Shown: positions 2,136-45,023 of the stretch, in pieces | Numbering within the stretch: position 1 is the first letter of the stretch | Layout: the number at the start of each line of letters is the position of its first letter | Source of the DNA: Noviluteimonas gilva | GTDB lineage: Bacteria; Pseudomonadota; Gammaproteobacteria; Xanthomonadales; Xanthomonadaceae | Length of the DNA: 64,000 nt | Direction of reading: 5' to 3' | NCBI RefSeq assembly: GCF_009740395.1 | Contig: NZ_WOXT01000003.1 | Coordinates: forward strand, 124,001 to 188,000 | Translations under genes and position numbers: made by a program | Notes under the pieces: generated by a model | Seen by the model: only the letters and a program-made list of their open reading frames with translations | Databases searched by the model: none | What the model was told of the DNA's origin: nothing

Positions 2136-2161
2136 AAACCCGCGTTCCGTCGCGGGTTTTT
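2136..2161 (+). terminator. Intrinsic-terminator-like hairpin in the ndk leader
   Basis: A perfect 9-base stem (2136-2144 with 2151-2159), 6-base loop TTCCGT, and a run of T to 2161. Polarity is plus strand. No plus-strand gene precedes it in the window, so it either attenuates ndk or ends a very short leader RNA. Confidence 0.55.
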
Positions 2162-2217
2162 CTGTTATCCTCGGGCCGCGCGCAAGTCGCGAGCCCGCCT
2201 GCCCGGAGTATTTCGAA

Positions 2218-2643
2218 ATGGCGCTGGAGCGCACCCTGTCCATCATCAAGCCCGATGCCGTTGCCAAGAACGTCGTCGGCGAAATCTATTCCCGCTTCGA
2301 GAAGAACGGCCTGAAGGTCGTCGCCGCGAAGATGAAGCACCTGTCGAAGCAGGAAGCTGAAGGGTTCTATGCCGTCCACCGCGAGCGTCCGTTCTTCGGC
2401 GCGCTGGTGAACTTCATGATCTCCGGCCCGGTCATGATCCAGGCGCTCGAAGGCGACAACGCGGTGCTGAAGAACCGCGACCTGATGGGCGCCACCAATC
2501 CGAAGGATGCCGCCGCGGGCACGATCCGCGCCGACTTCGCCGACTCGATCGACGCCAACGCCGTGCACGGCTCGGATTCGCTCGAAAACGCTGCGATCGA
2601 AATCGCGTACTTCTTCCCCACCACCGACGTCTACGCGCGCTGA
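2218..2643 (+). CDS. ndk: Nucleoside diphosphate kinase
   Basis: Transfers the gamma-phosphate between nucleoside triphosphates and diphosphates through a phosphohistidine, balancing cytosolic NTP and dNTP pools. The 141-residue length is typical. Visible family signatures are [12 protein letters not shown] at the N-terminus, the [11 protein letters not shown] segment, [14 protein letters not shown], and the active-site NAVHGSDS, whose histidine is the phosphate carrier. The start ATG at 2218 follows a CCCGGAGTATTTCGAA ribosome-binding region. It heads the plus-strand run that continues into rlmN 58 bases later. Confidence 0.97.
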
Positions 2644-2701
2644 GCGCCTGACGATCAAGGTCATCGAAACGAACGCAGTGAACGTGACGCTTCAAAACGG
2701 T

Positions 2702-3844
2702 ATGTCCGCCAAACAGAACCTCCTCGAGCTCGATCGCGAGGGCCTGGAAAACTTCTTCGCCGACACCCTTGGCGAGAAGCGTTTCCGCGCGCACCAGGTG
2801 ATGAAGTGGATCCATCATCGTTACGTCACCGATTTCGCCCAGATGACCGACTTGGGCAAGGTGCTGCGCGCCAAGCTCGAGGACGCGGCGGAAATCGTCG
2901 TGCCGAAGGTGCAATTCGAAAAGCCTTCGGCCGACGGCACGCACAAGTGGCTGCTCGGCATGGATGGCGGCAACGCCATCGAAGCCGTCTTCATTCCCGA
3001 CAAGGGCCGCGGCACGCTGTGCGTGTCCTCGCAGGTGGGCTGCGCGCTCAACTGCCAGTTCTGCTCCACGGCCACGCAAGGCTTCAACCGTAACCTCTCC
3101 ACCGCCGAGATCATCGGTCAGGTGTGGGTGGCCGCGCGTCACCTGGGCAACGTCCCGCACCATCAGCGCAAGCTCACCAACGTGGTGATGATGGGCATGG
3201 GCGAGCCGCTGGCCAATTTCGACAACGTCGTGCGCGCGATGAACGTCATGCGCGACGACCTGGGCTTCGGCCTGGCGAACAAGCGCGTCACGCTGTCGAC
3301 CGCGGGCATGGTCCCGATGATCGACAAGCTGGGCGAGGTGTGCGACGTCTCGCTCGCCATCTCCCTGCACGCGCCGAACGACGAGCTGCGCAGCGAACTG
3401 GTGCCGCTCAACAAGAAGTACCCGATCGCCGAACTCCTCGATTCCGCCGCGCGCTATGCGATGCGCAAGAAGGGCACGTCGATCACCTTCGAATACACGC
3501 TCATGAAGGGCGTGAACGATCAGCCGCAGCATGCCAAGCAGCTCGCGCGGCTGATGCACAAATTCGACAACGCCGTGCAGATGAAGGATGCGGCGAAGGT
3601 CAACCTGATTCCGTTCAATCCTTTCCCGGGCACGCGCTTCGAGCGCTCGCCGGAAGAGGACATCCGCGCGTTCCAGAAAACCTTGCAGGAAGCGCGCGTG
3701 CTGGCGACGGTGCGACGCACCCGCGGCGACGACATCGACGCTGCGTGCGGCCAGCTGAAGGGGCAGGTGCTCGACCGGACCCGGCGACAGGCCGCGTTCC
3801 GCAAGCACCTGGCCGAACAGGGGATTGGCGATGCGGCGGCCTGA
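2702..3844 (+). CDS. rlmN: Dual-specificity 23S rRNA/tRNA adenine-C2 methyltransferase
   Basis: Radical-SAM enzyme that makes m2A at 23S rRNA A2503 and tRNA position 37, affecting peptidyl-transferase function and decoding fidelity. The [4Fe-4S] ligands are the CALNCQFC cluster (Cys114, 118 and 121 from the chosen start). The methyl-carrying C-terminal cysteine is in DIDAACGQ (Cys349). Other signatures are [16 protein letters not shown] and [11 protein letters not shown]. The 380-residue length fits the family (E. coli 384). The start is uncertain: the ATG at 2702 gives [10 protein letters not shown], and an in-frame GTG at 2678 would add eight residues. It is followed by pilF with a 14-base overlap, so the two genes are translationally linked. 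Confidence 0.95.
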
Positions 3845-27503: not shown

Positions 27504-27579
27504 GGGGCCATAGCTCAGCTGGGAGAGCGCCTGCATGGCATGCAGGAGGTCGCCGGTTCGATCCCGGCTGGCTCCACCA
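27504..27579 (+). tRNA. tRNA-Ala (GGC)
   Basis: 76 bases with encoded CCA. The acceptor arms GGGGCCA and TGGCTCC pair with one G-T. The D arm is TAGCTCAGCTGGGAGAGC, the T loop is GGTTCGATCC, and the anticodon GGC is at 27537-27539 in the loop of the CTGCA/TGCAG stem. Confidence 0.96.
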
Positions 27580-27605
27580 AAAAATTCAAGCTGCAAACCG
27601 CTACT

Positions 27606-27681
27606 GTCCCCATCGTCTAGAGGCCTAGGACATTACCCTTTCACGGTAGCGACCGGGGTTCGAATCCCCGTGGGGACGCCA
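27606..27681 (+). tRNA. tRNA-Glu (TTC)
   Basis: 76 bases with encoded CCA. The acceptor GTCCCCA pairs with TGGGGAC; the T arm contains GGTTCGAATCC. The anticodon TTC is at 27640-27642 in a 7-base loop. It is the second gene of a two-tRNA transcript, 26 bases after tRNA-Ala. Confidence 0.96.
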
Positions 27682-28789: not shown

Positions 28790-31700
28790 ATGAATCTGCT
28801 GAACCTGCGCCGGGCCGCCTTCCGCACCATCGCGATGTTGGGTTTGGGTGTCGCGCTCCTCGCGCCGCATTTCGCACACGCCTCTTCGACCATCCGCACC
28901 TTCGCGGTGCGCAAGACCTTTACCCAGCGCGGCGACGCGCTGCTGGTCGGCAACACGCTGCTGACGTGCCCCACGGCGGCGTCGGGGTGCACGACCGCGC
29001 AGAACGGGTCGGGCAACAACAACGACTTCGCGATGACGTGGGTCGACATCGATGGCGATGGGTCGACCTTCAACTCCTCGCGCGCGACGCTGACGCTGCC
29101 GGTAGGCGCGACGGTGAGCTACGCGGCCCTGTACTGGGGCGGCGACAGCGCGGGCGCGCCGACGCCGGCGAGCCGCAACCTCGTGCGCTTCGCGACGCCG
29201 GCGGCCGGTTATTCGAACGTCACCTCCAGCAGCCTCGACGTCTCCGGCACGCGTTACGCCGCGTTCGCCGACGTCACCACGCAGGTGCAGGCCGGCGGCT
29301 CGGGCGTGTACGCGGTGGCGAACCTGCAGGCGAGCACCGGTGCGGATCATTACGGCGGCTGGAGCCTGGTCGTCATCTACAAGCTCGCCACCGACACGCT
29401 GCGCAACCTCACGCTGTTCGACGGCTATCTCGAGATCAACACCACCTCGCCGAGCTTCGTCACCACGCCGGTGTCGGGCTTCCGCACGCCGCCCGCGGGC
29501 GCGGTCAACACGCGCATCGGCCTGGTCGCGTTCGAAGGCGACAACAACTTCACCGGCGACCAGTTCCTGATCAACGGCACCACGCAGCTCACCGATGCGC
29601 TGAACCCCGCGACCAACGTCTTCAATTCGACGAACACGCGCCTGGCCGCGCAGCAGGGTGGCCGCACGCCGTCGCACACGAACCAGTTCGGCTTCGACAT
29701 CGATTACATCTCCGCCGGCGCGGTGCTGGGCAACAACGCGACGAGCGCGAGCCTGACGTTCAACACGACGAGCGAAACCTATTTCCCGACGGTGCTGATG
29801 TTCGCCACCGACGTGTATGAGCCGGAGATCGTCACCAACTTCACCAAGACCGTTTCCGACGGCAACGGCGCGCCGTTCCGCCCGGGCGACGAGCTGACGT
29901 ACACGATCAACGTCACCAATAGCGGCAACGATTTCGCGAACAACACCATCGTCACCGACCCGCTGCCCGTGGGCGTGACCTACGTGCCGAACTCGCTGCA
30001 GGTGGTGAGCGGCGCGAACGCCGGCACCAAGACCGACGGATCGGGCAACGACCAGGCCGAGTACAACGCGGGCACGCGCACCGTGACTTTCCGCGTGGGC
30101 ACCGGCGCCGACCAGACCGTCGGCGGCCAGCTCGTTCCGGCCGCGTCGACCGTGCTGCGCTTCAAGGTCACGATCGATGCCAACCTCGCCAACGGCGCGA
30201 ACATTTCGAACGTCGCGACGATCGGCTATGTCGCCGGCACCACGGGCGACGCCGGCAGCGGCAGCAATCCGCCGACGAGTTTCACCGTCGCGCGCGATAC
30301 GGATCTGTCGATCACCAAGACCGGCCCTGCGACCGTCGGCCTCGGCGGCGCGGTTTCGTACCTGGTGACGGTGTCGAACAGCGGCCCCGAACACGCGAAC
30401 GGCGCGACCGTCACCGACGACGTGCCCAACGCACTCACGGGCGTTGCGATCACCTGCGCCGCCAGCGGTGGCGCGGTGTGTCCGTCGACCACCGGCCTGA
30501 CCGATCTCACGGCGCTCGCGATCGCGACCTTCCCGTCGGGCGGCAGCGTCGCGTTCACCATCACCGGCACCGCGCCGAATGCGGCGACGACGCTGTCGAA
30601 CACCGCGACCGTCGCCGCGCCGTCGAACACCAACGATCCGAACACCGCGAACAACACGGCCGGCCCGGTCACGACGAATGTTTCGCCGGCCGCCGACGTC
30701 TCGCTCGCCAAGACGCTGGTGACCGCGGGTCCGTTCTACGTCGGCCAGTCGCTGCAGTACCAGATCGTCGTGTCGAACGCCGGTCCGCAGGCCGCGGCGA
30801 ATGTCGTCATCTCCGATACGCCGAGCAATCTGTCGATCGGCACCGTGAGCGGCGGCGGTTGTTCCGCGCTGCCGTGCACGATCGCGAGCCTCGCTTCGGG
30901 CGCCAGCGCGACGATCACCGTCAACGCGACGATCAACGCGACCGGTGCGTTCGACAACGGTGCGTCCGCCACGAGCGCGACCAGCGATCCGAACACCGCC
31001 AACAACAGCGATCCGAGCGGCAACGGCGGCACCGCCGTGCAGGGCGCCGACATCACGCTGACCAAGACGCTGATGACCGCCGGCCCGTACGCGATCGGCC
31101 AGGTGATCACCTACCAGTTGGTCGTGCACAACAACGGCCCCGCCAACGCGATGAACGTGGCGGTCTCCGACACGCCCGCCAATCTGACGATCCTGACCGT
31201 GTCGGGCGCCTGCAGCGCGCTGCCGTGCGTGATCAACAGCCTGCCGGACGGTCCGAACCGCATCATCACCGTCACCGCGCAGATCACTGGCGCGACGTTC
31301 GACAACAGCGCCACCGCGTCGAGCCCGGCGCCCGATCCGGTGCCCGGCAACAACGCCGATGCGACGGGCAACGGCGGCACCGCGGGTGCGACCGCCGATC
31401 TCGCGCTGAGCAAGACGCTCGTCACCGCCGGCCCGTATCTCCCCGGGCAGACGGTGCATTACACGATCGTCGTTTCGAACAACGGTCCGTCGGCGGCGGC
31501 GGGTGTCGTGGTCAACGACACGCCGACCAACCTGACGATCCTTAACGTCAGCGGGCCTTGCACGAGCTTCCCGTGCGCGGTCGGCGCCATCGCTTCGGGC
31601 GCCAGCGCGACGATCCAGGTCGATGCGCGCATCGATGCGGCCGGCGCGTTCGACAACGCGGCGACCGCGACGTCGACGTCGACCGATCCCACGCCCGGCA

Positions 31701-34700
31701 ACAACGGCGACAGCACGGGCAACGGCGGTACCGCGGTCGCGTCGGCGGACTTCGCGATCATCAAGTCGACGCCGAACGGCGCGGGCGTGCCTGCCGGTGC
31801 GCCGGTGCAGTACACGATCACCGTCACCAACAATGGTCCCTCGACGGCCGATGCGCTGGTGGAAGACACCTTGCCTGCGGGACTCACGGGCGCGACGTGG
31901 ACCTGCGCGGGCACGTGTCCGATGGGTTCGGGCGCGGGCGATCTCTCGGTGATCCTGACGCTTGCGCCGACGCAGAGCGCGACGTTCACGATCGATGCGA
32001 CTGCGCCGATCATCGCGCCGGCGACCATCGCCGCGAACACCGCGACGGTCGCCGCGACCAACAGCGCGGTCGATCCGACCCCCGCCAACAACTCGGCGAC
32101 CGCCACCGCCATCGCCGTCACCGCGCTCGCCATCAACGCGCAGGACGACACGTCCGCGCAGACCCCGGGCGGGGCAGGGGGCACGGCGATCGCGAACGTG
32201 CTGGCCAACGACACCTTCAATGGTGCAGGCGCCGACCTGTCGAGCGTTTCGCTCTCCATCGATACGCCGGCTTCCAATCCGAACGTCGCGCTCGATACGG
32301 CCACCGGTGCCGTCACCGTCGCCGCGAACACGCCGGGCGGCACGTACACCATCGTCTATCGCCTCTGCGAAATCGCGAACCCGACCAACTGCGACACCGC
32401 CACGGTCACCGTGTCGGTCGCCCTGGCGGTGATCGTCGCGACGAACGACACCGGCACGATCGGTGGCGCGTCCGGCGGCACTGCCGTCGCCGATGTCCGC
32501 GCGAACGACATGATCGACGGCGCGACGCCGACGTCCGGCAACAGCGTGCTCTCGCAGGTCTCGACGACCGACGCGCGCGTGCATCTCGATGCGGCCACCG
32601 GCGCGATCCTGGTCGACGCCGCCACGCCGGCGGGCACGTACACCGTGACGTATCGCGTGTGCGATCCGATCAACGCCACCAACTGCAAGCAAGCCGACGC
32701 CGTCGTGACGGTGACTGCGGCTGCGCTGATCGCAGGCGATGACACCGCGGGTCCTGTCTCCGGCACGACTGGTGGCAACGACATCGTCAATGTGCTCGGC
32801 AACGACACACTCGGCGGCGCTGCTGCGACCACGTCCAACGTCACGCTGGCGCCGGTGACCAATGGCCCGCTGTCGATGGATGCCAACGGCAACGTGGACC
32901 TCGCACCGAATACGCCGGCGGGTACGTATACGGTCGACTACCAGGTCTGCGAAGCGCTCAACCCGACGAACTGTGATACCGCAACGGTCACCGTCACCGT
33001 GTCGGCCGCCGTCGTCGCCGCTGGCAATGACGCGGGTTCCATCGGTGGTGCGACGGGCGGCACGGCGATCGCCGATGTGCGCGCGAACGACACCGTCGGC
33101 GGCGCAACCGCGAACGGCACGAACGCAACGCTTGCGCAGGTCTCGACCACGGACGCGAAGGTCACGCTCGATGCGTCGACCGGTGCGATCAATGTCGCCG
33201 CCAACACGCCGGCGGGCACGTACACCGTGAGCTATCGTGTGTGCGAAGCGCTGAACCCGACCAACTGCCAGACGGCCGATGCCGTCGTGACGGTGACCCC
33301 GGCAGCGCTGGTCGCAGGCGACGACAACGCGGGTCCTGTCTCCGGCACGACCGGCGGGAACGACATCGTCAACGTGCTCGGCAACGACACGCTGGGTGGC
33401 GCGCCCGCGACCACGTCGAACGTCACTCTGACGCAGGTGGCCAACGGCCCGCTGTCGATGGATGCCAACGGCAACGTCGACCTCGCACCGAACACGTCGG
33501 CCGGCACGTACACGCTCGACTACCAGGTCTGCGAAGCGCTCAATCCGACGAACTGCGCCACGGCGACGGTCACTGTCACCGTGTCGGCCGCCGTCGTGGT
33601 CGCTGGCAATGACGCGGGTTCCATCGGTGGTGCGACGGGCGGCGCGGCGATCGCCGATGTCCGCGCGAACGACACCGTCGGCGGCGCGGCCGCGACCAAC
33701 ACGAACGCGACGCTCGCGCAGGTTTCGACGACGGACGCGAAGGTCACGCTCGATGCGTCGACTGGCGCGATCAATGTCGCTGCCAACACGCCGGCCGACA
33801 CGTACACCGTGACCTATCGCGTGTGCGAAGCGCTGAATCCGACCAACTGCCAGACCGCCGACGCCGTCGTGACGGTGACCGCGGCTGCACTGGTCGCAGG
33901 CGACGACAACGCGGGTCCCGTTTCCGGCACGACCGGCGGGAACGACATCGTCAACGTGCTCGGCAACGACACGCTGGGTGGCGCTGCGGCGACGACGTCC
34001 AACGTCACGCTGGTGCCGGTCACGAATGGCCCGCTGTCGATGGATGCCAACGGCAACGTCGACCTCGCGCCGAACACGCCGTCCGGCACGTACACGCTCG
34101 ACTACCAGGTCTGCGAAGCGCTCAACCCGACGAACTGCGATACCGCGACGGTGACCGTCACCGTGTCGGCGGCGAGCCTGGTGGCCGGCAACGATGCCGG
34201 CACGATCGGCGGCGCGACGGGCGGTACCGCGATCGTCGACGTGCGCGCGAACGACACCGTTGGTGGCGCTGGCGCGACCAATGCTAACGCGACGCTCGCG
34301 CAGGTCTCGACGACGAATCCGAACGTCACGCTCGACACGTCGACCGGCGCGATCCAGGTCGCCGCCGGGACGCCGTCAGCTTCGTACACGGTGACCTACC
34401 GCTTGTGCGAAGCGCTCAACCCGGCCAATTGCACGACGGCCGATGCAGTCGTCACCGTCACCGCCGCCGCGATCGTCGCGGGCGATGACAGCGCCGGCCC
34501 GATTTCCGGCCGCACCGGTGGCAACGACATCGTCAATGTTCTGGGCAACGACACGCTCGGCGGTGCGAACGCGATGACGTCCAACGTCACGCTGACGCCG
34601 GTCACCAATGGCCCGCTGTCGATGGATGCCAATGGCAACGTCGATCTCGCACCGAACACGACTGCGGGCACGTACACGCTCGACTACACGGTTTGCGAAG

Positions 34701-37700
34701 CCCTGAATCCGACGAATTGCGACACGGCGACGGTCACCGTGACGGTCGCGGCAGCGGTCGTCTCCGCAACGAACGACGCCGGCTCCATCGGCGGCGCGAC
34801 GGGCGGCACGGCCATCGCCGATGTCCGTAGCAACGACACCATCGACGCGGCCACCGCTACCAACTCGAACGCCACGCTCGCCCAGGTCTCGACGACCAAC
34901 CCGAACGTCACGCTCGACACGTCGACCGGCGCAATCCTGGTCGCCGCCGGCACGCCGTCCGGCACGTACACGGTGACGTATCGCCTGTGCGAAGCGCTGA
35001 ACCCGACCAACTGCACGCCGGCTGATGCAGTCGTCACCGTCACCGCCGCCGCAATCGTGGCGGGCGATGACAGCGCCGGCCCGATCTCCGGCCGCACCGG
35101 TGGCAACGACATCGTCAATGTCCTGGCCAACGACACGCTCGGCGGTTCGAACGCGACGACGTCGAACGTGACGCTCACGCCGGTCACCACCGGTCCGCTG
35201 TCGATGGACGCCAACGGCAACATCGATCTCGCGCCGAACACGACTGCGGGCACGTACACGCTCGACTACACGGTCTGCGAAGCGCTGAATCCGACCAACT
35301 GCGCCACCGCTACGGTCACCGTGACGGTCGCGGCCGCGGTCGTGTCCGCAACGAACGACGCCGGTTCCATCGGCGGCGCGACGGGCGGCACGGCGATCGC
35401 CGATGTCCGCGGCAACGACACCATCGACGCGGCCGCCGCTACCAACTCGAACGCCACGCTCGCCCAGGTCTCGACGACCAACCCGAACGTCACGCTCGAC
35501 ACGTCGACCGGCGCGATCCAAGTCGCCGCAGGCACACCGTCGGGCACGTACACGGTCACCTACCGCCTGTGCGAAGCACTCAACCCGACGAACTGCACGA
35601 CAACTGATGCAGTCGTCACCGTCACCGCCGCCGCCATCGTGGCCGGCAATGACAGTGCGGGTCCGATCTCCGGCCGCACCGGCGGCAACGACATCGTCAA
35701 CGTCCTCGCCAACGACACGCTCGGTGGCGCGAACGCGACGACCTCGAACGTGACGCTGACGCCGGTCACCACCGGTCCGCTGTCGATGGACGCCAACGGC
35801 AACATCGACCTCGCGCCGAACACGGCCGCGGGCACCTACACGCTCGACTACACGGTCTGCGAAGCGCTGAACCCGGCGAACTGCGACACCGCCACGGTCA
35901 CCGTGATCGTGTCCGCGGCGACGTTGTCCGCGTCCAACGACACCGGTTCCATCAACGGCGCCACGGGCGGCACGGCCATCGCCGATGTCCGCGCGAACGA
36001 CACCGTCGATGCAGCCGCCGCCACCGGTGCGAACGCCACGCTCGCCCAGGTCTCGACGACAAACCCGAACGTCACGCTCGATACAACCACCGGCGCGATC
36101 ACCGTCGCCGCCGGCACGCCGTCGGGCACGTACACGGTCACGTATCGCCTGTGCGAAGCGCTGAACCCGACCAACTGCACCACGGCCGACGCCGTCGTGA
36201 CGGTCACTGCATCCCCGATCGCCGCCAACGACGACACCGCGGGCCCGATCTCCGGCCGCACCGGCGGCACCGCCATCGTCGCCGTGCTCGACAACGACAC
36301 GCTCGGCGGCGCGGCGGCGACCACGTCCAACGTGACGCTCGCGCCGGTCACCAACGGCCCGCTGTCGATGGATGCCAGCGGCCAGGTCGACCTCGCGCCC
36401 AACACGCCGGCCGGCACGTACACGCTCGATTACACCGTGTGCGAGGCGCTCAACCCGTCGAACTGCGCGACCGCGACCGTGACGGTCACCGCCAGCGCCG
36501 CGGCCCTGGTCGCGACGAACGACAACGGTTCGATCGGCGGCATCGCCGGCGGCACCGCCATCGCCGACGTGCGCACAAACGACACGGTCGACGCCGCGCT
36601 CGCCACCAGCGCGAACGCCACGCTCGCCCAGGTCTCGACGACGAACCCGAACGTCACGCTGGACACGACGACCGGCGCGATCGACGTCGCCGCCAACACG
36701 CCGGCGGGCACGTACACCGTGACCTATCGCCTGTGTGAAGCGCTGAACCCGACGCACTGCACGACCGCCGACGCCATCGTCGTCGTCACCGCCGCCGCGA
36801 TCGTCGCCAACGACGACTCCGGCGGCCCGGTGCAGGGCAGGGTGGGTGGCAACGACGTCGTCAATGTGCTCGGCAACGACACGCTGGGTGGCGCGACCGC
36901 CACGACGCCGCAGGTCGTGCTCACGCCGGTGACCAACGGTCCGCTGTCGATGGATGCCAACGGCAACGTCGATGTCGCCCCGAACACCGCCGTCGGCACC
37001 TACACGCTCACCTACACGGTGTGCGAAGCACTGAACCCGTCGAACTGCGACACCGCCATCGTGACGATCACCGTCGACGCCGCCGCCATCGTCGCCAACG
37101 ACGACACCGGCCCGAATGTCGCCGGCGCCACGGGCGGCACGGCGATCGCCGACGTGCGCGGCAACGACACGCTCGGTGCCACGCCGGTCGTGAACGCGGA
37201 CGTCGTGCTGAGCATCGTGACGCCGGCCTCGACGCCGAACGTCGCACTCGACACCACGACCGGTGCGGTGACGGTGGCCCCGGGCACTGCGGCCGGCACC
37301 TACACGATCACCTATCGCCTGTGCGAAGCGCTGAACCCGACCAACTGCGACACCGCCATCGCGACCGTCACCGTCACCGCCGCGGCCATCGTGGCGAACG
37401 ACGACCACGGTGGTCCGATCGATGGTGGGGCAGGGACGGGCAATGCGCTGAACGTGTTCGGCAACGACACGCTCAATGGCGCCGCCGCCACGACGTCGAA
37501 CACGACGCTCGCGCCGGTGACCAACGGCCCGCTGTCGCTCGATGCGAACGGCACCGTCGCCGTTGCCGCCGGTACGCCGGCCGGCACGTACACGCTGACG
37601 TACACGCTGTGCGAATCGCTCAATCCGACGAACTGCGACACCGCGACGGTCACGGTCGAGGTCATCGCCCCGGCGATCGCCGCGGCCGATGACGCGTCGA

Positions 37701-39013
37701 CGACGGTGCAGAACACCGCCACCATCATCGCGGTCCTGGGGAACGACACCATCGGCGGTTCCGCGGCCGACCAGGCGCGCATCGCGGTCACCGTCACGAT
37801 CGAAACGCAGCCCGCGCACGGCACGGTCGTCGTCAACGACGACGGCACCGTCACCTACACGCCATCGACGAACTACAGCGGCCCGGACACGTTCACCTAT
37901 CGCCTGTGCGACCGCCTGAACCCGACCGTCTGCACGACCGCCAACGTCGCCATCACCGTCACGCCGAACGAAGTCGAAGCCCACGACCAGGTCGCCACCA
38001 CGCCGCAGACCGGCCCGGTGCGCATCGATGTCGTCGGCACGACGCGCAACGGTGGCGGTGCGCCGCTGGATCCGACCTCGGTGCAGGTCGTGACGCAGCC
38101 CGCGCACGGCACGGTCGTCGTCAATCCGGACGGGTCGATCACCTACACGCCGGACCGCCTGTTCATCGGCACCGACACGTTCACCTTCCGCATCTGCGAT
38201 CTGTCCACGCCGACGCCGGTGTGCGACACGGCGACGGCGACGATCACCATCCTCGCCGACGCCACGTCGCTGCGCCTGTCGAAGACGACGACCTCGTCCG
38301 CGGTGCGCGTCGGTGATGTCGTGCGCTACACGGTGCGCGTCGACAACGTCGGCATCGCGCCGGCCAACGACGTGATCGTGGTCGATACGCCGCCCGCGGG
38401 CTTCACCTACGTCGAAGGCTCGTTGCGCGTCGACGATGCGGACGATGCGTTCGTGCAGACGGGTGCGAATCCGCTGCGCGTCGCCGGTGTCGACGTTCCG
38501 GTCGACGGCCACGCGACGATCACCTATGCGCTGCGCGTCGGCGCGGGCGTCGGCCGCGGCACGCACATCAACCGCGTGACCGCCACCGACAGCACGGGCC
38601 TGACGCTCAGCAACCAGGCCTCGGCCGAAGTGCGCGTCGAAGGCGATCCGCTGCTCGACGACAGCCTGGTGTTCGGCACGGTGTTCGTCGACACCAACGG
38701 CGATGGCATGCAGCAACCGGGCGAACCGGGGCTGGCCGGCGTGCGCATCGCGTCCGTCGAAGGCCTGCTGATCGAAACCGACGCGCAGGGCCGCTGGCAC
38801 CTGGCCGGTGTCGATGCGCAGAACGCGCTGCGCGGTCGCAATTTCATCCTGAAGGTCGATGCCAGCACCTTGCCGGCCGGCGCTTCGTTCACCACTGCCA
38901 ATCCGCTGGTTCGCCGCATCACGCCGGGCGTGCCGGTGCGCTTCGACTTCGGCGTCCGACTGCCACCGCCCGAGGACGCGAGACCTGCGCCCTCGGCCCC
39001 GGCAGCGAACTGA
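28790..39013 (+). CDS. Giant exported DUF11/Ig-like repeat protein (3407 residues)
   Basis: Predicted surface or periplasmic fibre; function unknown. A signal peptide (residues 1-32, ending AHA) comes first. Next is a unique domain (about 33-343), then six DUF11-type domains (about 344-1113; motif ADxxLxKTLVTAGP). A long Ig-like array (about 1118-2966) alternates two unit types of 96-98 residues, each with the marker CEALNPTNC. Two divergent units with PAHGTVVVN follow (to about 3160), then a last DUF11 domain, an SdrD-B-like domain (GTVFVDTNGDGMQQPGEPG, about 3293-3360) and a proline-rich tail. There is no autotransporter barrel, LPXTG or type-I secretion end. An outer-membrane barrel gene follows 11 bases later and is the likely partner. 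Several array units are near-identical at DNA level. Confidence 0.85.
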   Translation: MNLLNLRRAAFRTIAMLGLGVALLAPHFAHASSTIRTFAVRKTFTQRGDALLVGNTLLTCPTAASGCTTAQNGSGNNNDFAMTWVDIDGDGSTFNSSRATLTLPVGATVSYAALYWGGDSAGAPTPASRNLVRFATPAAGYSNVTSSSLDVSGTRYAAFADVTTQVQAGGSGVYAVANLQASTGADHYGGWSLVVIYKLATDTLRNLTLFDGYLEINTTSPSFVTTPVSGFRTPPAGAVNTRIGLVAFEGDNNFTGDQFLINGTTQLTDALNPATNVFNSTNTRLAAQQGGRTPSHTNQFGFDIDYISAGAVLGNNATSASLTFNTTSETYFPTVLMFATDVYEPEIVTNFTKTVSDGNGAPFRPGDELTYTINVTNSGNDFANNTIVTDPLPVGVTYVPNSLQVVSGANAGTKTDGSGNDQAEYNAGTRTVTFRVGTGADQTVGGQLVPAASTVLRFKVTIDANLANGANISNVATIGYVAGTTGDAGSGSNPPTSFTVARDTDLSITKTGPATVGLGGAVSYLVTVSNSGPEHANGATVTDDVPNALTGVAITCAASGGAVCPSTTGLTDLTALAIATFPSGGSVAFTITGTAPNAATTLSNTATVAAPSNTNDPNTANNTAGPVTTNVSPAADVSLAKTLVTAGPFYVGQSLQYQIVVSNAGPQAAANVVISDTPSNLSIGTVSGGGCSALPCTIASLASGASATITVNATINATGAFDNGASATSATSDPNTANNSDPSGNGGTAVQGADITLTKTLMTAGPYAIGQVITYQLVVHNNGPANAMNVAVSDTPANLTILTVSGACSALPCVINSLPDGPNRIITVTAQITGATFDNSATASSPAPDPVPGNNADATGNGGTAGATADLALSKTLVTAGPYLPGQTVHYTIVVSNNGPSAAAGVVVNDTPTNLTILNVSGPCTSFPCAVGAIASGASATIQVDARIDAAGAFDNAATATSTSTDPTPGNNGDSTGNGGTAVASADFAIIKSTPNGAGVPAGAPVQYTITVTNNGPSTADALVEDTLPAGLTGATWTCAGTCPMGSGAGDLSVILTLAPTQSATFTIDATAPIIAPATIAANTATVAATNSAVDPTPANNSATATAIAVTALAINAQDDTSAQTPGGAGGTAIANVLANDTFNGAGADLSSVSLSIDTPASNPNVALDTATGAVTVAANTPGGTYTIVYRLCEIANPTNCDTATVTVSVALAVIVATNDTGTIGGASGGTAVADVRANDMIDGATPTSGNSVLSQVSTTDARVHLDAATGAILVDAATPAGTYTVTYRVCDPINATNCKQADAVVTVTAAALIAGDDTAGPVSGTTGGNDIVNVLGNDTLGGAAATTSNVTLAPVTNGPLSMDANGNVDLAPNTPAGTYTVDYQVCEALNPTNCDTATVTVTVSAAVVAAGNDAGSIGGATGGTAIADVRANDTVGGATANGTNATLAQVSTTDAKVTLDASTGAINVAANTPAGTYTVSYRVCEALNPTNCQTADAVVTVTPAALVAGDDNAGPVSGTTGGNDIVNVLGNDTLGGAPATTSNVTLTQVANGPLSMDANGNVDLAPNTSAGTYTLDYQVCEALNPTNCATATVTVTVSAAVVVAGNDAGSIGGATGGAAIADVRANDTVGGAAATNTNATLAQVSTTDAKVTLDASTGAINVAANTPADTYTVTYRVCEALNPTNCQTADAVVTVTAAALVAGDDNAGPVSGTTGGNDIVNVLGNDTLGGAAATTSNVTLVPVTNGPLSMDANGNVDLAPNTPSGTYTLDYQVCEALNPTNCDTATVTVTVSAASLVAGNDAGTIGGATGGTAIVDVRANDTVGGAGATNANATLAQVSTTNPNVTLDTSTGAIQVAAGTPSASYTVTYRLCEALNPANCTTADAVVTVTAAAIVAGDDSAGPISGRTGGNDIVNVLGNDTLGGANAMTSNVTLTPVTNGPLSMDANGNVDLAPNTTAGTYTLDYTVCEALNPTNCDTATVTVTVAAAVVSATNDAGSIGGATGGTAIADVRSNDTIDAATATNSNATLAQVSTTNPNVTLDTSTGAILVAAGTPSGTYTVTYRLCEALNPTNCTPADAVVTVTAAAIVAGDDSAGPISGRTGGNDIVNVLANDTLGGSNATTSNVTLTPVTTGPLSMDANGNIDLAPNTTAGTYTLDYTVCEALNPTNCATATVTVTVAAAVVSATNDAGSIGGATGGTAIADVRGNDTIDAAAATNSNATLAQVSTTNPNVTLDTSTGAIQVAAGTPSGTYTVTYRLCEALNPTNCTTTDAVVTVTAAAIVAGNDSAGPISGRTGGNDIVNVLANDTLGGANATTSNVTLTPVTTGPLSMDANGNIDLAPNTAAGTYTLDYTVCEALNPANCDTATVTVIVSAATLSASNDTGSINGATGGTAIADVRANDTVDAAAATGANATLAQVSTTNPNVTLDTTTGAITVAAGTPSGTYTVTYRLCEALNPTNCTTADAVVTVTASPIAANDDTAGPISGRTGGTAIVAVLDNDTLGGAAATTSNVTLAPVTNGPLSMDASGQVDLAPNTPAGTYTLDYTVCEALNPSNCATATVTVTASAAALVATNDNGSIGGIAGGTAIADVRTNDTVDAALATSANATLAQVSTTNPNVTLDTTTGAIDVAANTPAGTYTVTYRLCEALNPTHCTTADAIVVVTAAAIVANDDSGGPVQGRVGGNDVVNVLGNDTLGGATATTPQVVLTPVTNGPLSMDANGNVDVAPNTAVGTYTLTYTVCEALNPSNCDTAIVTITVDAAAIVANDDTGPNVAGATGGTAIADVRGNDTLGATPVVNADVVLSIVTPASTPNVALDTTTGAVTVAPGTAAGTYTITYRLCEALNPTNCDTAIATVTVTAAAIVANDDHGGPIDGGAGTGNALNVFGNDTLNGAAATTSNTTLAPVTNGPLSLDANGTVAVAAGTPAGTYTLTYTLCESLNPTNCDTATVTVEVIAPAIAAADDASTTVQNTATIIAVLGNDTIGGSAADQARIAVTVTIETQPAHGTVVVNDDGTVTYTPSTNYSGPDTFTYRLCDRLNPTVCTTANVAITVTPNEVEAHDQVATTPQTGPVRIDVVGTTRNGGGAPLDPTSVQVVTQPAHGTVVVNPDGSITYTPDRLFIGTDTFTFRICDLSTPTPVCDTATATITILADATSLRLSKTTTSSAVRVGDVVRYTVRVDNVGIAPANDVIVVDTPPAGFTYVEGSLRVDDADDAFVQTGANPLRVAGVDVPVDGHATITYALRVGAGVGRGTHINRVTATDSTGLTLSNQASAEVRVEGDPLLDDSLVFGTVFVDTNGDGMQQPGEPGLAGVRIASVEGLLIETDAQGRWHLAGVDAQNALRGRNFILKVDASTLPAGASFTTANPLVRRITPGVPVRFDFGVRLPPPEDARPAPSAPAAN
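32141..37684 (+). repeat. Coding tandem array: 582-base A+B unit
   Basis: Anchor codon of the A unit (before GDD/NDD) recurs at 32735, 33317, 33899, 34481, 35063, 35645, 36227 and 36809: seven intervals of exactly 582 bases (194 codons). The next interval is 588. Each period holds an A domain (GPxSGxTGGNDIVNVLGNDT, then NGPLSMDANG) and a B domain (GSIGGATGGTAIADVRxND, then LAQVSTT). In total 19 units lie here, with two more divergent ones to about 38268. Confidence 0.9.
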
Positions 39014-39024
39014 GGACCGCCGAC

Positions 39025-42000
39025 ATGACCATGAAGAAGACGCTCCTCCACGTGACGCTGATCGGCCTGCTGTACGCGGCCGCCCCGATGCCGGCGCATG
39101 CGCAACAGCCGTTGTCGACGACGGCCGCGGCGACCGCGGATCCCGCGCTCGTGCGCGCCGGCCGCCATGCGATCGCGCTGCCGAACGGCGGCACGATCTG
39201 GGCGGTGGAAGATCCCACGCTCACGACGCCGCGTTTGTCGGTGCGCGCGCCGGCGACGATCGCGTTCGCCGATGGCCGCATCGTCGGGCCCGTGCGGTTC
39301 CAGGGTGCGACCAACTATCCGTCGTTCATCGATCGCATCGAAGTGACGGTGTATCGCGAAAGCGATGCCGATCTCGTCGAACCGCTCGCGACCGTCGTGC
39401 TCCCGGCCGGCGCGATGCCGCAGGGCACGTGGGATGGTGCGCTGCCTGCGAACCTCGTTCTGAAGCGCGGCGACTCGCTGCGATACATCTCGCGCGCCTA
39501 CGGCAAGAACGGCGGCGTCGACGAAACGTATCCGCAGCTGCTGCAACTCGTGTCGCCGGAAGAACAGGCGCGCGGCGTGCAGGCACTGCGCGCGGATGTG
39601 GAACGTTCACGTGGCCAGGCGCTCGACGCGGAGCAGGCGCAGAGCCTTTCGCTGGAAGCCAACGCGGCCGGCGACAACGCCTTGCGCCAGCAGAACATCG
39701 CGGTGCACGGATCGCGCGTGCGCATCCAGGGCCGCGACGTTCCGGCGGGCCAGAGCATCACGATCGACGGCACCACCGTGCCGCTGACGCGTGAACGCAC
39801 GTTCGTCGCCGAGTATCTCGAGCCGGTCGGTGCGCACGACTACGCGATCGCCGTGGGGCAGGGGAGTGTCGCGCAGTCGCTGAACGTCGACGTGACGGGG
39901 CGTTACCTGTTCCTCGTCGCGATGGCCGACGTGACGCTCTCGCAGAGCAGCGCGAGCGGCAACATCGAACCGCTCGCGGGCGATGAACGTTTCGAAGACG
40001 GCTTCCTCGACGAAGGCCGCCTGGCCTTCTACCTGAAGGGCAAGGTGCGCGGGAAATACCTCGTCACCGCGCAGGCCGATACGCAGGAGCGTTCGCTCGA
40101 CAATCTGTTCAACGGATTCTTCGAAGCCGATGCACAGGATGTGTTCCGTCGCCTCGATCCGGATGCGTATTACCCGGTCTACGGCGACGACTCGACGACC
40201 ACGCGCGATGTCGATACGCAGGGCAAGCTGTACGTTCGCGTCGACTGGGATCGCAGCCAGGGCCTGTGGGGCAACTTCAGCACCGGGTTCTCGGGCACCG
40301 AGTACGGCCAGTACCAGCGTTCGCTGTACGGCGCGGCGCTCGACTTCAAGAGCCGTGGCACGACCGAGCTCGGCGATGCGAAGTCGGAGTTGCGTGCCTT
40401 CGGTTCCGAAGCGCAGAGCGCGGTCGGGCACAGCGAGTTCCTCGGCACCGGCGGCAGCCTGTACTACATGCACCACACGGACTTGTTGCCCGGTTCGGAT
40501 CATGTCGTGCTCGAAATCCGCGACGTGCGCACCGGCCGCGTGGAATCGCGTGTCGACCTGCAACGCGGCGCTGATTACGAAATCGACGAACTCCAGGGCC
40601 GCCTGATCCTCACGCGTCCGCTTTCGCAGATCACGCGCGAGAACGTGCGCACGCTGACGCGCGATGCGGCGCTCGACGGGTTCGAACAGCGCTTGCTCGC
40701 CGATTACGAGTACATCCCGACGGGGTTCGACGCGGGCCACGTGAGCAGCGGCGTGCGCGCCAAGCAGTGGATCGGCGATCACGTGGCGGTCGGTGCGACC
40801 TATGTCGACGAGAACCGCGACGGCGACGACTACGGCCTGCGTGGCGGCGATCTGACCTTGCAGGCGGGTCGTGGCACGTACTTGAAGCTCGAAGGCGAGC
40901 GTTCCGAATCGACCTCGGTGCCGGTGTTCTTCTCCGACAACGGCGGTCTGTCGTTCGTCGAACGCAATCCGGTCAGCACTGCGCGCAGCGGCGACGCGCG
41001 TGCGGTCGACGGTCGGGCGAACCTGCGCGAACTCGGCTGGACACAACGCGACTGGACGCTCGGTGCGTGGTGGCGTGATGTCGACGATGGCTTCTCCGTT
41101 GCGCGCGCCGACACGGGCCTGGCGACGCAGGAACAAGGTGTCGAGTTCACCGGCCAGATCGGCGAACGCTTCACGCTCTCGGGGCGTTGGACGGAAGCCG
41201 ATCGCGGCACGTCGGAACTCGACCAGACGCAGCTGACCGGCGACTGGCGCATCGGCGATTCCGACCAGCTCGGATTCGAAGTGCGCGACGTGCGCGAGGC
41301 CGCGACCGGATTCGACGAAAGCGCGTTGCTTGCCGCCTTCAGCTATCGCCACCGCATCGGGTCGAGCGTCGAGTTGTACGGCGTGGGCCAGGCGAGCGTG
41401 CGGGAGGAGGGCGGTTACGCGGAGAACGATCGCCTGACACTCGGCGCCAAGTATTTGTTCGGCGATCGTTCGAACGTCGGCCTGGAAGTCAGCGGCGGCG
41501 ATCGCGGGCAGGCGGCGACGCTCGATGGCGAATATCGTCTCGGCGAGGACCACACCGTCTACGGCGGTTACACCTACAGCACCGACACGACGGCCTCGCG
41601 CTTGGCCAGCGAATTCGATCGCCAGTTGCGCAACGGCTGGACGCTCGGCCAGCGCTGGCGCCCGACGAACCAGTTGAACGTGTTCAACGAAAGCCAGTTC
41701 CTGCGCAGCCCGAACGGCGACGACGGCATCACGCACACGCTCGGCATGGATTTCTATCCGACCGATGCGTGGCAGCTCGGTTTCACCGTGATGGATGGCG
41801 AGCTCGATGCGGCCAGCGGCCGCGTGGATCGTCGCGCCTACAGCGTGTCCGCCGGCCGCACCGATGCCGACACGCAGTGGTCGAGCAAGCTCGAGTTCCG
41901 CCGCGACACCGGCGCCGAACAACGCGACCAATGGGTGACCACCAATCGCCTGATGTATCGCGTCAACGACGACTGGCGCATCGCCGCGCGCGTGAACTAC

Positions 42001-42546
42001 GCCGACACCGACGATCGCGTGAATCCGCTCGCAAGCGCGACGCTCGGCGAAACCAACATCGGCTTCGCCTGGCGCCCGCACGACACGACGCGTTATGCGT
42101 TGTTCGGCAAGGCGACGTACCTGTACGACATCGCGTCGCCGGGGCAGGTGGGCGGTGCGACGTACGACCAGCGTTCGCAGGTGTTTTCGCTGGAAGGCGT
42201 CGTGCAACTCGACGACCGCTGGGAGCTGGCGCCGAAGCTGGCCACCCGTCGCGGCGATTGGCGCGTGGAACGCGGCACGGGCGATTGGCTCGACAGCCGT
42301 GCGTCCTTCGCCGCGCTGCAGGTCCGCTATCACTTGCCGATGGAATGGGATGCGCTGGCGGAGACGCGCTGGCTCGACGTCCGCGATGGCGGCACGCGTA
42401 ACGGCGTTTTGATCGGCATCGATCGCCAGCTGGGCGACAATTTCAAGATCGGCGTCGGCTACAACTTCACCGATTTCAGCGACGATCTGACGGATCTGGA
42501 ATACGACCACGAAGGCGTGTTCCTGAATTTCGCCGGGTTCTATTGA
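39025..42546 (+). CDS. Outer-membrane beta-barrel partner of the giant protein
   Basis: The 1173-residue exported protein has a signal peptide (residues 1-27, ending AHA) and a soluble N-terminal part (about 28-300). A conserved block follows with KVRGKYLVTAQADTQER, then DPDAYYPVYGDDSTT (about 378-392) and SLYYMHHTDLLPGSDHVVLEIRD. A long C-terminal region of alternating short beta strands (about 560-1173) ends in aromatic FAGFY, as outer-membrane barrels do. From memory, this block occurs in large barrel proteins that are fused or adjacent to DUF11 repeats. A Shine-Dalgarno AGGA overlaps the upstream stop; an ATG at 39031 is an alternative start. I infer a role in anchoring or exporting the giant protein. 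Confidence 0.8.
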   Translation: MTMKKTLLHVTLIGLLYAAAPMPAHAQQPLSTTAAATADPALVRAGRHAIALPNGGTIWAVEDPTLTTPRLSVRAPATIAFADGRIVGPVRFQGATNYPSFIDRIEVTVYRESDADLVEPLATVVLPAGAMPQGTWDGALPANLVLKRGDSLRYISRAYGKNGGVDETYPQLLQLVSPEEQARGVQALRADVERSRGQALDAEQAQSLSLEANAAGDNALRQQNIAVHGSRVRIQGRDVPAGQSITIDGTTVPLTRERTFVAEYLEPVGAHDYAIAVGQGSVAQSLNVDVTGRYLFLVAMADVTLSQSSASGNIEPLAGDERFEDGFLDEGRLAFYLKGKVRGKYLVTAQADTQERSLDNLFNGFFEADAQDVFRRLDPDAYYPVYGDDSTTTRDVDTQGKLYVRVDWDRSQGLWGNFSTGFSGTEYGQYQRSLYGAALDFKSRGTTELGDAKSELRAFGSEAQSAVGHSEFLGTGGSLYYMHHTDLLPGSDHVVLEIRDVRTGRVESRVDLQRGADYEIDELQGRLILTRPLSQITRENVRTLTRDAALDGFEQRLLADYEYIPTGFDAGHVSSGVRAKQWIGDHVAVGATYVDENRDGDDYGLRGGDLTLQAGRGTYLKLEGERSESTSVPVFFSDNGGLSFVERNPVSTARSGDARAVDGRANLRELGWTQRDWTLGAWWRDVDDGFSVARADTGLATQEQGVEFTGQIGERFTLSGRWTEADRGTSELDQTQLTGDWRIGDSDQLGFEVRDVREAATGFDESALLAAFSYRHRIGSSVELYGVGQASVREEGGYAENDRLTLGAKYLFGDRSNVGLEVSGGDRGQAATLDGEYRLGEDHTVYGGYTYSTDTTASRLASEFDRQLRNGWTLGQRWRPTNQLNVFNESQFLRSPNGDDGITHTLGMDFYPTDAWQLGFTVMDGELDAASGRVDRRAYSVSAGRTDADTQWSSKLEFRRDTGAEQRDQWVTTNRLMYRVNDDWRIAARVNYADTDDRVNPLASATLGETNIGFAWRPHDTTRYALFGKATYLYDIASPGQVGGATYDQRSQVFSLEGVVQLDDRWELAPKLATRRGDWRVERGTGDWLDSRASFAALQVRYHLPMEWDALAETRWLDVRDGGTRNGVLIGIDRQLGDNFKIGVGYNFTDFSDDLTDLEYDHEGVFLNFAGFY

Positions 42547-42585
42547 GCCCGGCGGATTCGAAGAAAGGATTGGAAAGGACGCCAC

Positions 42586-42756
42586 ATGTTTGTGCAGAAC
42601 GATTCGAACAAATCCCCGAGTGCGCCTGTAGACCAGGCGCCTGATCAGACGCCGCCGCCGGTGAGTCCGCCGCAGCGTGCCGTGCCGGAACCGCAGACCA
42701 GGACGGGCTCGCTCAGCGAAAGCCTCAAGACGCGTCTGTTGCGGGCGCTGCGCTGA
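42586..42756 (+). CDS. Proline-rich 56-residue mini-protein
   Basis: Not recognised. It begins 39 bases after the barrel stop, with AAAGGA at a good distance from the ATG. Residues 10-36 are rich in proline, glutamine and alanine (QTPPPVSPPQRAVPEP). The last 16 residues form a basic amphipathic helix candidate (SLSESLKTRLLRALR). There is no signal peptide. Position, ribosome-binding site and strand suggest it is the third gene of the repeat-protein operon. Confidence 0.5.
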   Translation: MFVQNDSNKSPSAPVDQAPDQTPPPVSPPQRAVPEPQTRTGSLSESLKTRLLRALR

Positions 42757-42952: not shown

Positions 42953-43031
42953 ATTTCAACATGAAGTGCATTCATCTCGGCGATCGGCGTTAGCCTTGTC
43001 GATGCGCAACGTCGTGCATGAGGACGCAGGC

Positions 43032-45023
43032 ATGGATTCGGGAATCGCGACACCGACTTCGCGCGAACAACTCTGGGCCCTGCTCGCCGAAGCGGCCGAA
43101 ATCGAACATCACCTGATGTGCTGCTACCTCTATGCCGCCTTCAGCCTCAAGGAGCATGCGGACGAAGATCTGACGGACGTCGAACTCGCCGCGGTACAGC
43201 GTTGGCGCAAGGAGATCTTCGCCGTCGCCGTCGAGGAGATGGGCCACCTGGCGATCGTCTGCAACATCCTCTCCGCGCTCGGTGCGCCAGCGCACTTCGT
43301 CCACCAGAATTTCCCCGTTCCCGCCGGTTACCACCCCTCGGGCGTGGTGGTGAAACTTTCGCCCTTCGAACCGGCGACGCTCGCGCATTTCATCTATCTC
43401 GAACGCCCCGCTGACGCGGAGATCCTCGACGGCGCAGGCTACGAGCCCGCGCGGCGTTATGCGCGCGCACTCGACATGGATCGCTTGATGACCGTGTGCA
43501 CGGACTACAACACGGTCGGCGAGTTGTATCAGTCGGTGGAAGCCGGCCTGCAGTTTCTGTGCGATGCGTTCGGCGAATCGGCGTTGTTCGTCGGCGATCC
43601 GCAGCATCAACTCGATGCCGAAACGACGCGGCTCCCGGGCCTGGTGCCGGTGCGTTGCATCAAGACCGCGCTCGCCGCCATCGACGCCATCGTCGTCCAG
43701 GGCGAAGGCGCGAAGGCTTGTGGCGGCGATTCGCACTACCAGCGGTTCCTCCGCATCCAGCGCGAATACGACGCGCTGTTGGTTTCGCGCCCCGCGTTCA
43801 AACCCGCGCGCATGAATGCGTACAACCCGGTGATGCGCCCGCCGCCGACGCCCGAAGGCAAACTCTGGGTCAGCGAGGAACCCGCGGCGGCGCTGCTCGA
43901 TCTCGGCAACGCGTTGTACAACCACTGCCTGCGATGCCTGTCGCTCGCTTACGCCGGCGTCGATCGCCCAACGCAAACTACGCTGGTCTCGGCAACCATC
44001 GATCTGATGCACTTGCTGACACCGGTCGCGACGATGTTGGGCCGCCTGCCCGCGAACCCGAGCGCGCCGGATGCGACCGCAGGCCTGAGTTTCGCGACGA
44101 TCCGCACCTCCGCCGCGCTTCCCGCCGAAGCGGCGAGCCTGGACATCCTGGTCGAACGCCTCGCGCAATTCACGGCGCGATGCGAACGGTTGGGTACGCA
44201 ATATCCCGAACTCGCTCCGCTACTCGACGCCACGCGAGCGGGCACGCAACGCGTGGCGAATCGCATTGCGCAAGCCGCAGCGGAGTCGCGCGAGGGGCAA
44301 CCAAAAGCGGCCACCGCAAGCGCGCCTCCAACGAACGACCGCCCCCCTGCCCCGCGTGCCCCGCCGCAACCCGTGGCGGACGGTAACGGCGTCGAAATCA
44401 TTCCGGGCAGCGAAATCGACCTGGTGTACGAGGGCAAGCGATGCATCCACGCGCGGCATTGCGTGCTCGGCCAGCCCGGTGTGTTCAAGGCGAACGTCGA
44501 GGGGCCGTGGATCGATCCGGATGCGGCGTCGACGGAAGACCTCGTGACCGTCGCGCACATGTGCCCCTCGGGCGCGATCCGTTATCGACGCCATGATGGC
44601 GGCGCCGAAGAAGCGGCACCGCCGATCAACCTCGTGCAATTGCGCGAGAACGGCCCGCTGGGCATTCGCGCCGACATCGTGCTCGACGGCACGCGCATCG
44701 GGATGCGCGCGGTGTTGTGTCGGTGTGGTGCCTCGAAGCACAAGCCGTTCTGCGATGGCAGCCACAACGAGATTCACTTCCGCGCCAGTGGCGAACCGGA
44801 CACGGTGGAATCGCAACCGCTCGCCGCACGCGGCGGACCCTTGCGCGTCGATCCCGAGATCGACGGCCCGCTGGTGGTGACCGGCAATCTCGAGATCTGC
44901 TGCGGCACGGGGCGGACGGTCAACCGCGTCACCGCAACGCGCCTGTGCCGTTGCGGTGGATCGTCGAACAAACCGTTCTGCGACAACACCCATCGTCGCA
45001 TCGGATTCCGCAGCGAGGGCTAG
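43032..45023 (+). CDS. VioB-like ferritin-fold / ferredoxin-like / double-CDGSH fusion
   Basis: The 663-residue cytosolic protein has three kinds of metal module. Residues 10-260 form a ferritin-like domain (EIEHHLMCCYLYAAFSL and VAVEEMGHLAIVCNIL, an E..EH...EExxH pattern) of the iminophenylpyruvate-dimer-synthase type (VioB/RebD). About 458-520 is a divergent single-cluster ferredoxin (YEGKRCIHARHC, HMCPSGAIRYRR). Two CDGSH [2Fe-2S] domains follow: CRCGASKHKPFCDGSH (about 563-578) and CRCGGSSNKPFCDNTH (about 639-654, with CDNTH in place of CDGSH). The ATG at 43032 is preferred because GAGG lies eight bases upstream; the ATG at 43002 is possible. The stop overlaps that of the convergent tyrosinase gene (CTAG). 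Confidence 0.85.
   Translation: MDSGIATPTSREQLWALLAEAAEIEHHLMCCYLYAAFSLKEHADEDLTDVELAAVQRWRKEIFAVAVEEMGHLAIVCNILSALGAPAHFVHQNFPVPAGYHPSGVVVKLSPFEPATLAHFIYLERPADAEILDGAGYEPARRYARALDMDRLMTVCTDYNTVGELYQSVEAGLQFLCDAFGESALFVGDPQHQLDAETTRLPGLVPVRCIKTALAAIDAIVVQGEGAKACGGDSHYQRFLRIQREYDALLVSRPAFKPARMNAYNPVMRPPPTPEGKLWVSEEPAAALLDLGNALYNHCLRCLSLAYAGVDRPTQTTLVSATIDLMHLLTPVATMLGRLPANPSAPDATAGLSFATIRTSAALPAEAASLDILVERLAQFTARCERLGTQYPELAPLLDATRAGTQRVANRIAQAAAESREGQPKAATASAPPTNDRPPAPRAPPQPVADGNGVEIIPGSEIDLVYEGKRCIHARHCVLGQPGVFKANVEGPWIDPDAASTEDLVTVAHMCPSGAIRYRRHDGGAEEAAPPINLVQLRENGPLGIRADIVLDGTRIGMRAVLCRCGASKHKPFCDGSHNEIHFRASGEPDTVESQPLAARGGPLRVDPEIDGPLVVTGNLEICCGTGRTVNRVTATRLCRCGGSSNKPFCDNTHRRIGFRSEG

Follow-up and report, generated by a model that had tools for sequence, protein, structure and literature searches.

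Adhesins with stalks of DUF11 (CLIPPER) domains and an OmpA-like anchor have been described in Gram-negative bacteria, for example B9T28_05395 of Acinetobacter silvestris (PMC12617251; PMC10952558), and such anchors and stalks are reported to be frequent among the adhesins of Proteobacteria (PMC10952558). Excerpts of these two papers place the anchor on a single protein and make no mention of a barrel partner, and the excerpt of PMC10952558 leaves unstated how these giant adhesins cross the outer membrane. A locus that relates to this question lies in the soil bacterium Noviluteimonas gilva (Xanthomonadaceae), within a stretch of 64,000 nucleotides referred to here as the window (assembly GCF_009740395.1, contig NZ_WOXT01000003.1, forward-strand positions 124,001 to 188,000), whose own numbering is used throughout. 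In it, the gene for a giant fibre protein of 3407 residues (28790..39013, + strand) is followed, after 11 bases and on the same strand, by the gene for a predicted outer-membrane barrel of 1173 residues (39025..42546, +). The pairing of adhesin and barrel is well supported, and a fairly supported reading of the sequence comparisons is that, in most relatives, an OmpA-like domain is split between the two proteins.

The giant protein resembles the DUF11-stalk fibrillar adhesins in being a long exported protein with a signal-like start and a tandem stalk of DUF11 and cadherin/Big-type domains, and its relatives share with them an OmpA-like anchor at the C-terminus. The locus differs in that the barrel is encoded by a separate gene and the OmpA domain is cut between genes; in the window pair the domain is absent. 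Since adhesins with a DUF11 stalk and an OmpA anchor have been published before, the fibre taken by itself does not count as a new kind. For the barrel partner and the split domain, no description was found in the open papers of PubMed Central (PMC).

Type 5 secretion includes the autotransporters and the two-partner TpsA/TpsB systems, and the likeness here is that passenger and barrel form one chain in some relatives and are encoded by adjacent genes in others. In contrast to type 5 systems, the barrel has no POTRA match (Pfam, E up to 1) and no match to the autotransporter families (Pfam), it is predicted to be far larger, and an OmpA-like domain stands between passenger and barrel. The type 11 (Slam) system likewise places a dedicated outer-membrane protein, of the DUF560 family, beside a cargo gene (PMC12282271); this system was rejected, with no DUF560 match to the barrel in Pfam at E up to 1. 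Ushers, whose 24-stranded barrel is gated by a plug (PMC8410936), offer a further comparison. Like the predicted barrel, FimD and PapC are large barrels with an inserted plug-like part, and they export adhesive proteins of the immunoglobulin-like (Ig-like) type. However, about 40 strands are predicted here rather than 24, the substrate would be one giant chain, the Usher family gives no match in Pfam at E up to 1, and C-terminal usher domains are lacking, as the chain ends with a barrel strand. The type 9 translocon SprA is a 36-strand, single-chain barrel (PMC10994853) and shares with the barrel predicted here its very large size in one chain and, for the proposed cargo, a conserved C-terminal domain. 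In contrast, the present barrel belongs to Pseudomonadota rather than Bacteroidota, and NCBIfam, a library that presumably holds a SprA model, returns no match of it to SprA up to E 0.1.

Pairing of the adhesin and barrel genes

Among 160 distinct barrels (distinct meaning merely not identical over the last 300 residues, so that near-identical copies are counted apart), 136 have a separate partner on the same strand within 1.5 kb upstream and 13 are fused to their partner. Seven others have under 900 nt of flank with no partner seen, and for four none was found, which gives an adjoining or fused partner in 149 of the 153 with enough flank to judge, a partner being any sequence matched by a profile that was built from the C-terminal blocks of these same partners. 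Such a partner is not always a DUF11 protein, and the one at locus L106 has Calx-beta and no DUF11 match. In the reverse test, the window's C-terminal module (38267-38974) was the query against 247 family genomes at E <= 1e-10; module and barrel were found together in 110, the barrel only in 8, the module only in 0 and neither in 129. The two-partner pairing is thus strongly supported from both sides (149/153 barrels; 110/110 module genomes). The first-pass annotation had named barrel homologues that usually occur without a repeat-protein partner as evidence that would tell against a two-partner system, and the co-occurrence count gives no such picture. One gene does speak against the pairing: in Pseudoxanthomonas yeongjuensis (L222), the 5.8 kb upstream of the barrel gene contain no partner. 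The other three barrels without a partner have just 1.3-1.5 kb of flank each.

The distribution of the system is patchy. Matches to the barrel profile at E <= 0.001 occur in 118 of the 247 family genomes and in 42 of 274 class genomes, and all four other genus genomes searched have none. A profile scan of named genomes found at least 563 barrel-encoding stretches; among the best 80 of these, which were kept, many come from Lysobacter, Stenotrophomonas, Pseudoxanthomonas and Luteimonas. A single-sequence scan of genome contigs for barrel relatives found none, whereas the profile scan found them. Some variants of the arrangement were also seen. In one genome (G373, contig 2, loci L094/L095), an open frame of 11,777 residues, of which the last 6497 codons were translated, holds the same barrel, so that fibre and barrel form one chain. 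Three genomes (G009, G019 and G020) carry at least two barrels at separate places, and among these the distant-type barrel L024 belongs to a protein that begins with OmpA domains (two Pfam stretches).

The signal-peptide-like start of the giant protein (residues 1-31, 28790..28882) was judged by eye and is followed by an N-terminal region (residues ~32-345, 28883..29824) that is a candidate adhesive tip; the only Pfam match in this region is Gmad2, at 10.3 bits and below its cut-off of 25.7. Stalk domains of the DUF11/DUF7619 type, recognized by Pfam and NCBIfam, extend over residues ~350-1130 (29837..32179), with TIGR04226 at residues 350-480 scoring 32.8 bits against a cut-off of 30 in NCBIfam. 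Over the entire protein, Pfam reports seven DUF11 stretches (E 8.9e-87) and 11 Big_9 stretches (E 2.9e-28), and NCBIfam reports B_ant_repeat; nowhere else in the genome does DUF11 match at E <= 0.001 outside this open reading frame (ORF). Residues ~1125-3150 (32162..38239) contain 21 cysteine-paired repeats of ~96-98 residues in two alternating types, delimited by cysteine spacing and Big_9 matches, with the edges placed by eye. The 54 cysteines of the protein include 21 C-x7/8-C motifs between residues 1193 and 3145, spaced by 96-100 residues and mostly by 98 and 96 in alternation, in agreement with the cysteine-paired repeats proposed initially. Tandem Repeats Finder missed these repeats because the double unit exceeds 500 bases, the longest period that the program considers.

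The C-terminal module (residues 3160-3395, 38267..38974; DUF11 and SdrD-like) is the proposed dock, a role suggested by its conservation and by its co-occurrence with the barrel across genomes. Its median identity is 51-70% in all 95 partner proteins over 800 residues, and that of earlier segments is about 30-44%, with the N-terminal segments under-sampled because many partners are cut at the edge of their locus. Only a short tail remains behind the module (38975..39013), at the place where most relatives have OmpA-like pieces. The stop codon of the giant gene is overlapped by a ribosome-site-like TGAGGA (39011..39016), 8 bases ahead of the barrel ATG, and the barrel protein has a signal-peptide-like start of its own (residues 1-26, 39025..39102, by eye). 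The ORFs, the 11-base gap and the overlapping Shine-Dalgarno-like sequence of the first-pass annotation were confirmed at these coordinates, and signal-like starts were seen by eye on both large proteins. The annotation also described the giant protein as lacking its own export domain; this holds for the window protein, but relatives possess pieces of the OmpA type that the window protein lacks.

OmpA-like pieces on adhesin and barrel

The partner protein of most relatives, for example that of Lysobacter enzymogenes (L225), stops about two thirds of the way through an OmpA-like domain, the remainder of which appears to be located immediately behind the signal peptide of the barrel protein. The PF00691 domain is whole or partial in relatives: partner tails at L014 and L018 match it over positions 1-65/66 of 98 only, and just behind the signal-like start of the relatives' barrel proteins is a G-x-x-x-P...RRV stretch corresponding to the missing end. 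In the single-chain proteins of L105, L106 and L108, the order is fibre, OmpA, barrel, and PF00691 is covered over 1-98 or 2-98 of 98. The OmpA domains that are intact in unsplit relatives were combined into a profile of 118 positions and 25 rows, one row being a second reading of one domain. On this profile, the adhesin tails of 99 pairs score 4.2-21.6 bits, starting at or before position 8 in 99/99 and ending by position 81 in 96/99. The barrel segments end at positions 112-117 in 89/99, 82 of them with at least 10 columns, and 29 of the 99 score higher than the 99.5th percentile of a set of 1966 shuffles, compared with 0/18 barrels without pieces. In profile-profile alignment to OmpA, the tails reach a probability of 96.6 and the barrel segments one of 60.7; the barrels of tail-less pairs have 0.2.

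Several results weigh against a split domain. Single barrel segments are weak, with a best score of 9.3 bits where shuffles reach 10.6; 52 of 99 score above zero, and 47 are at or below zero or unmatched (one unmatched). At L014 and L018, the barrel piece alone gives no Pfam OmpA match, and joining the pieces hardly alters the match (1-67 and 1-65 of 98; 40.3 to 41.3 and 43.4 to 44.1 bits). The G-x-[AT]-D...R motif is present in 99/99 tails and presumably contains the peptidoglycan-binding residues; it provides no independent support for peptidoglycan binding because it nearly equals the rule by which tails were defined. Two conserved OmpA residues are described as binding peptidoglycan in PMC6572160. 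Finally, neither large protein of the window matches PF00691 in the Pfam scan; the giant protein has no C-terminal OmpA-like anchor, and the pair, having neither piece, has no OmpA lock.

The presence or absence of the two pieces is matched. In 117 distinct pairs (not identical over the last 800 residues, near-identical copies again being counted apart), both pieces occur in 99, neither in 18 and one alone in 0. Of 120 distinct barrels, three were dropped, L222 and L050 with no partner sequence upstream and L226 because it is short. An earlier and stricter motif rule gave 92 pairs with both, 7 with the barrel piece alone, 18 with neither and 3 that could not be scored; the partner rule was loosened once because those seven tails read RRS or similar in place of RA (by eye). 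These seven tails score 8.4-17.8 bits on the OmpA profile. Among the tails of the 18 piece-less pairs, 17 are at or below 2.5 bits, and L220 reaches 6.1 bits in what we take for its first, degenerate OmpA-like piece. On a FastTree tree with some long branches, which counts changes and not losses, each trait requires six changes, and 6/6 independent pairs agree (sign test, p 0.031), six being the minimum number able to reach p 0.05.

Rather than reflecting a working contact, the matched state might have arisen by exchange of the gene junction through recombination or by shared ancestry. The two pieces are no more than a few hundred bases apart, only six changes were counted and the tree is blind to gain versus loss, all of which would suit such an origin. 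However, the 18 barrels without OmpA pieces retain the start and the signal-like stretch between the piece positions (by eye), so a single deletion cannot explain the joint absence. Moreover, it is hard to see what a lone OmpA end would do on a barrel, and one piece alone is seen in none of the 117 pairs. On balance, junction exchange or ancestry is an unlikely explanation. The 18 pairs include those of the window, Lysobacter terrigena (L155) and a metagenome-assembled genome labelled Rhizobium (L162), which cluster on the tree. Most likely, the lineage of the window lost both pieces; the tree is without power to separate gain from loss, and loss is indicated because single-chain relatives carry the whole domain.

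Two further features of the junction were observed by comparison. Between the OmpA-like part and the barrel, the fused proteins L094 and L093 contain, by eye, a hydrophobic stretch resembling a signal peptide, which might reflect the fusion of two genes or a cleavage of the exported chain. L161 and L166 (Pseudoxanthomonas PXM02 and PXM01) have a C-x4-C pair at the end of the adhesin, and their barrels are without the C-x4-C that is common after the signal-like start of the barrel.

The predicted barrel and its possible roles

In neither Pfam nor NCBIfam does the barrel protein reach the cut-off of any family. With matches admitted up to E 1, Pfam gives it only DUF2490 and BBP2, both below cut-off, and searches of the PDB with the sequence and with the barrel profile returned nothing meaningful. 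The barrel itself is predicted from two AlphaFold2 (AF2) models made with 74 sequences. Both models show six long strands, then a beta insert at residues ~479-530 (40459..40614) and then 34 more long strands, counted by hand from the strand lists and excluding one strand (294-307) ahead of the first counted. The predicted barrel of about 40 long strands occupies residues 327-1173 (40003..42543), and the beta domains and helical hairpin that precede it (residues 49-307, 39169..39945, AF2 secondary structure) are probably periplasmic. By its position after the sixth strand, the insert is plug-like, and the usher resemblance suggests that it may act as a plug. In Foldseek, the first model has SprA at rank 1 among the matches listed (E 2.5e-8, query template modelling (TM) score 0.17). 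In VIA-align, the first model has FimD first (Z 16.6), with SprA at Z 15.2, a root-mean-square deviation (rmsd) of 10 and 465 aligned residues, and the second model has FimD first again (Z 16.8, rmsd 19.9). We read this as an usher/SprA-like architecture predicted by the models, not as membership of either family.

The models also provide reasons for doubting this architecture. Their quality is middling (mean predicted local distance difference test score 74 and 73; predicted TM score 0.67 and 0.65), and the fits are loose, with FimD at an rmsd of 6.7-20 A and Foldseek query TM scores of at most 0.20 among the matches listed. A TonB receptor stands third in Foldseek for the first model, close behind SprA; SprA is not among the 50 matches listed for the second model; and porins and TonB receptors also reach Z 11-14 against the barrel models. 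A viral fold library gave loose matches only.

The main rival to an export function is that the barrel serves only as an outer-membrane mount for the adhesin while another route, such as type II secretion, exports the fibre. Type II secretion exports folded proteins, and 56 of 60 chosen barrel-bearing genomes, that of the window included, have a match above cut-off to its secretin GspD. The OmpA pieces favour anchoring, and the looseness of the usher/SprA resemblance is also in keeping with a mount. In contrast, the best secretin matches of two nearly complete genomes, G054 and G123, are only 1.5e-59 and 2.2e-60, the level of second-best matches in other genomes, and two more genomes, G109 and G187, are also below the cut-off, although nearer to it (intermediate). 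About 40 strands and an insert after the sixth would furthermore be superfluous for a mount. An anchor-only role appears somewhat unlikely.

A periplasmic role for the giant protein has also been considered. Deinococcus SlpA is described as tying the outer membrane to peptidoglycan (PMC9388160), and SlpA complexes are among the fold neighbours of the barrel (Z 12.8 for the first model and up to 14.2 for the second). Together with the OmpA-like pieces of the relatives, this could mean that the giant protein remains periplasmic and joins with the barrel in linking the outer membrane to the wall. The ~30 Ig-like domains of the window protein and the 11,777-residue frame of a relative are, however, too long for a radial tether, and a system found in 118/247 family genomes and 0/4 other genus genomes searched is patchy for such a function. 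An envelope tether is quite improbable.

The reading preferred here, which we hold at about even chances, is a two-partner fibrillar-adhesin system with a barrel dedicated to export and anchoring. Both proteins would reach the periplasm through Sec by their own signal peptides, and the giant protein would fold there, where its cysteine pairs can oxidise. Its C-terminal module would then dock onto the periplasmic part of the barrel protein, and the very wide, ~40-strand usher/SprA-like barrel would pass the fibre across the outer membrane, leaving its C-terminus behind as an anchor. In most relatives, the dock may be locked by a peptidoglycan-binding, OmpA-like domain that the two chains build jointly, the adhesin giving the first two thirds and the barrel protein the end. 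The lineage of the window, without these pieces, would have to hold its fibre through the remaining interface. The pairing and the matched state of the two pieces are observed and the barrel is predicted, whereas docking, peptidoglycan binding, passage through the barrel and surface exposure are inferred. The initial suggestion that the barrel anchors or translocates its partner fits the predicted ~40-strand barrel and its loose usher/SprA resemblance; its transport and surface-exposure parts stay conditional in the same way.

The third frame, neighbouring genes and the meaning of the pair

A 56-residue ORF (42586..42756, +) starts 39 bases past the barrel stop and had been proposed as the third member of the cassette. 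The ribosome-site-like GGAAAGGA ahead of its ATG and its short distance from the barrel gene would be consistent with a real small protein of the system. However, among the matches listed from the collected loci, L210 gives the best one outside the window (E 0.014 over 31 residues), and the best other matches across 149 family genomes have E 0.002-0.004, none of them convincing. As the frame has no convincing homologue, it was rejected as a member, a part for which its chances seem very small, and the cassette is treated as two genes. The three-gene cassette of the first-pass annotation is thereby reduced to its two large genes, which are a real and conserved pair.

The genes for tRNA-Ala (ggc) and tRNA-Glu (ttc) lie upstream of the pair (27504-27681). 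Among ten nearby ORFs that were scanned, one about 5 kb upstream (20500-23448) encodes a protein whose GGDEF domain scores 132 bits (cut-off 37.4), and another (42966-45023) encodes a protein that has a part weakly resembling VioB (59 bits, where the cut-off is 1250) and, by eye, two CxCG...KPFCDxxH-like motifs near its end. An empty site could be read in none of the four relatives of the genus compared because matches to the left flank are scattered over several places.

The presence of the barrel in 110/110 module-bearing family genomes makes it a gene to knock out in asking how such adhesins cross the outer membrane. A wall-binding domain common to two separately exported proteins would, if true, be an unusual latch, and the lineages without OmpA pieces, that of the window included, are ready-made controls. 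It is conceivable, and we propose it only tentatively, that the pair represents an undescribed outer-membrane export route in which a barrel of ~40 strands (36 in SprA) passes a whole folded giant adhesin and is joined to it by a peptidoglycan-binding domain made of two polypeptides. In conclusion, the nearly constant pairing and the wall-gripping domain that many relatives seem to share in two halves between the proteins suggest a hitherto undescribed route by which giant adhesins are exported and retained.

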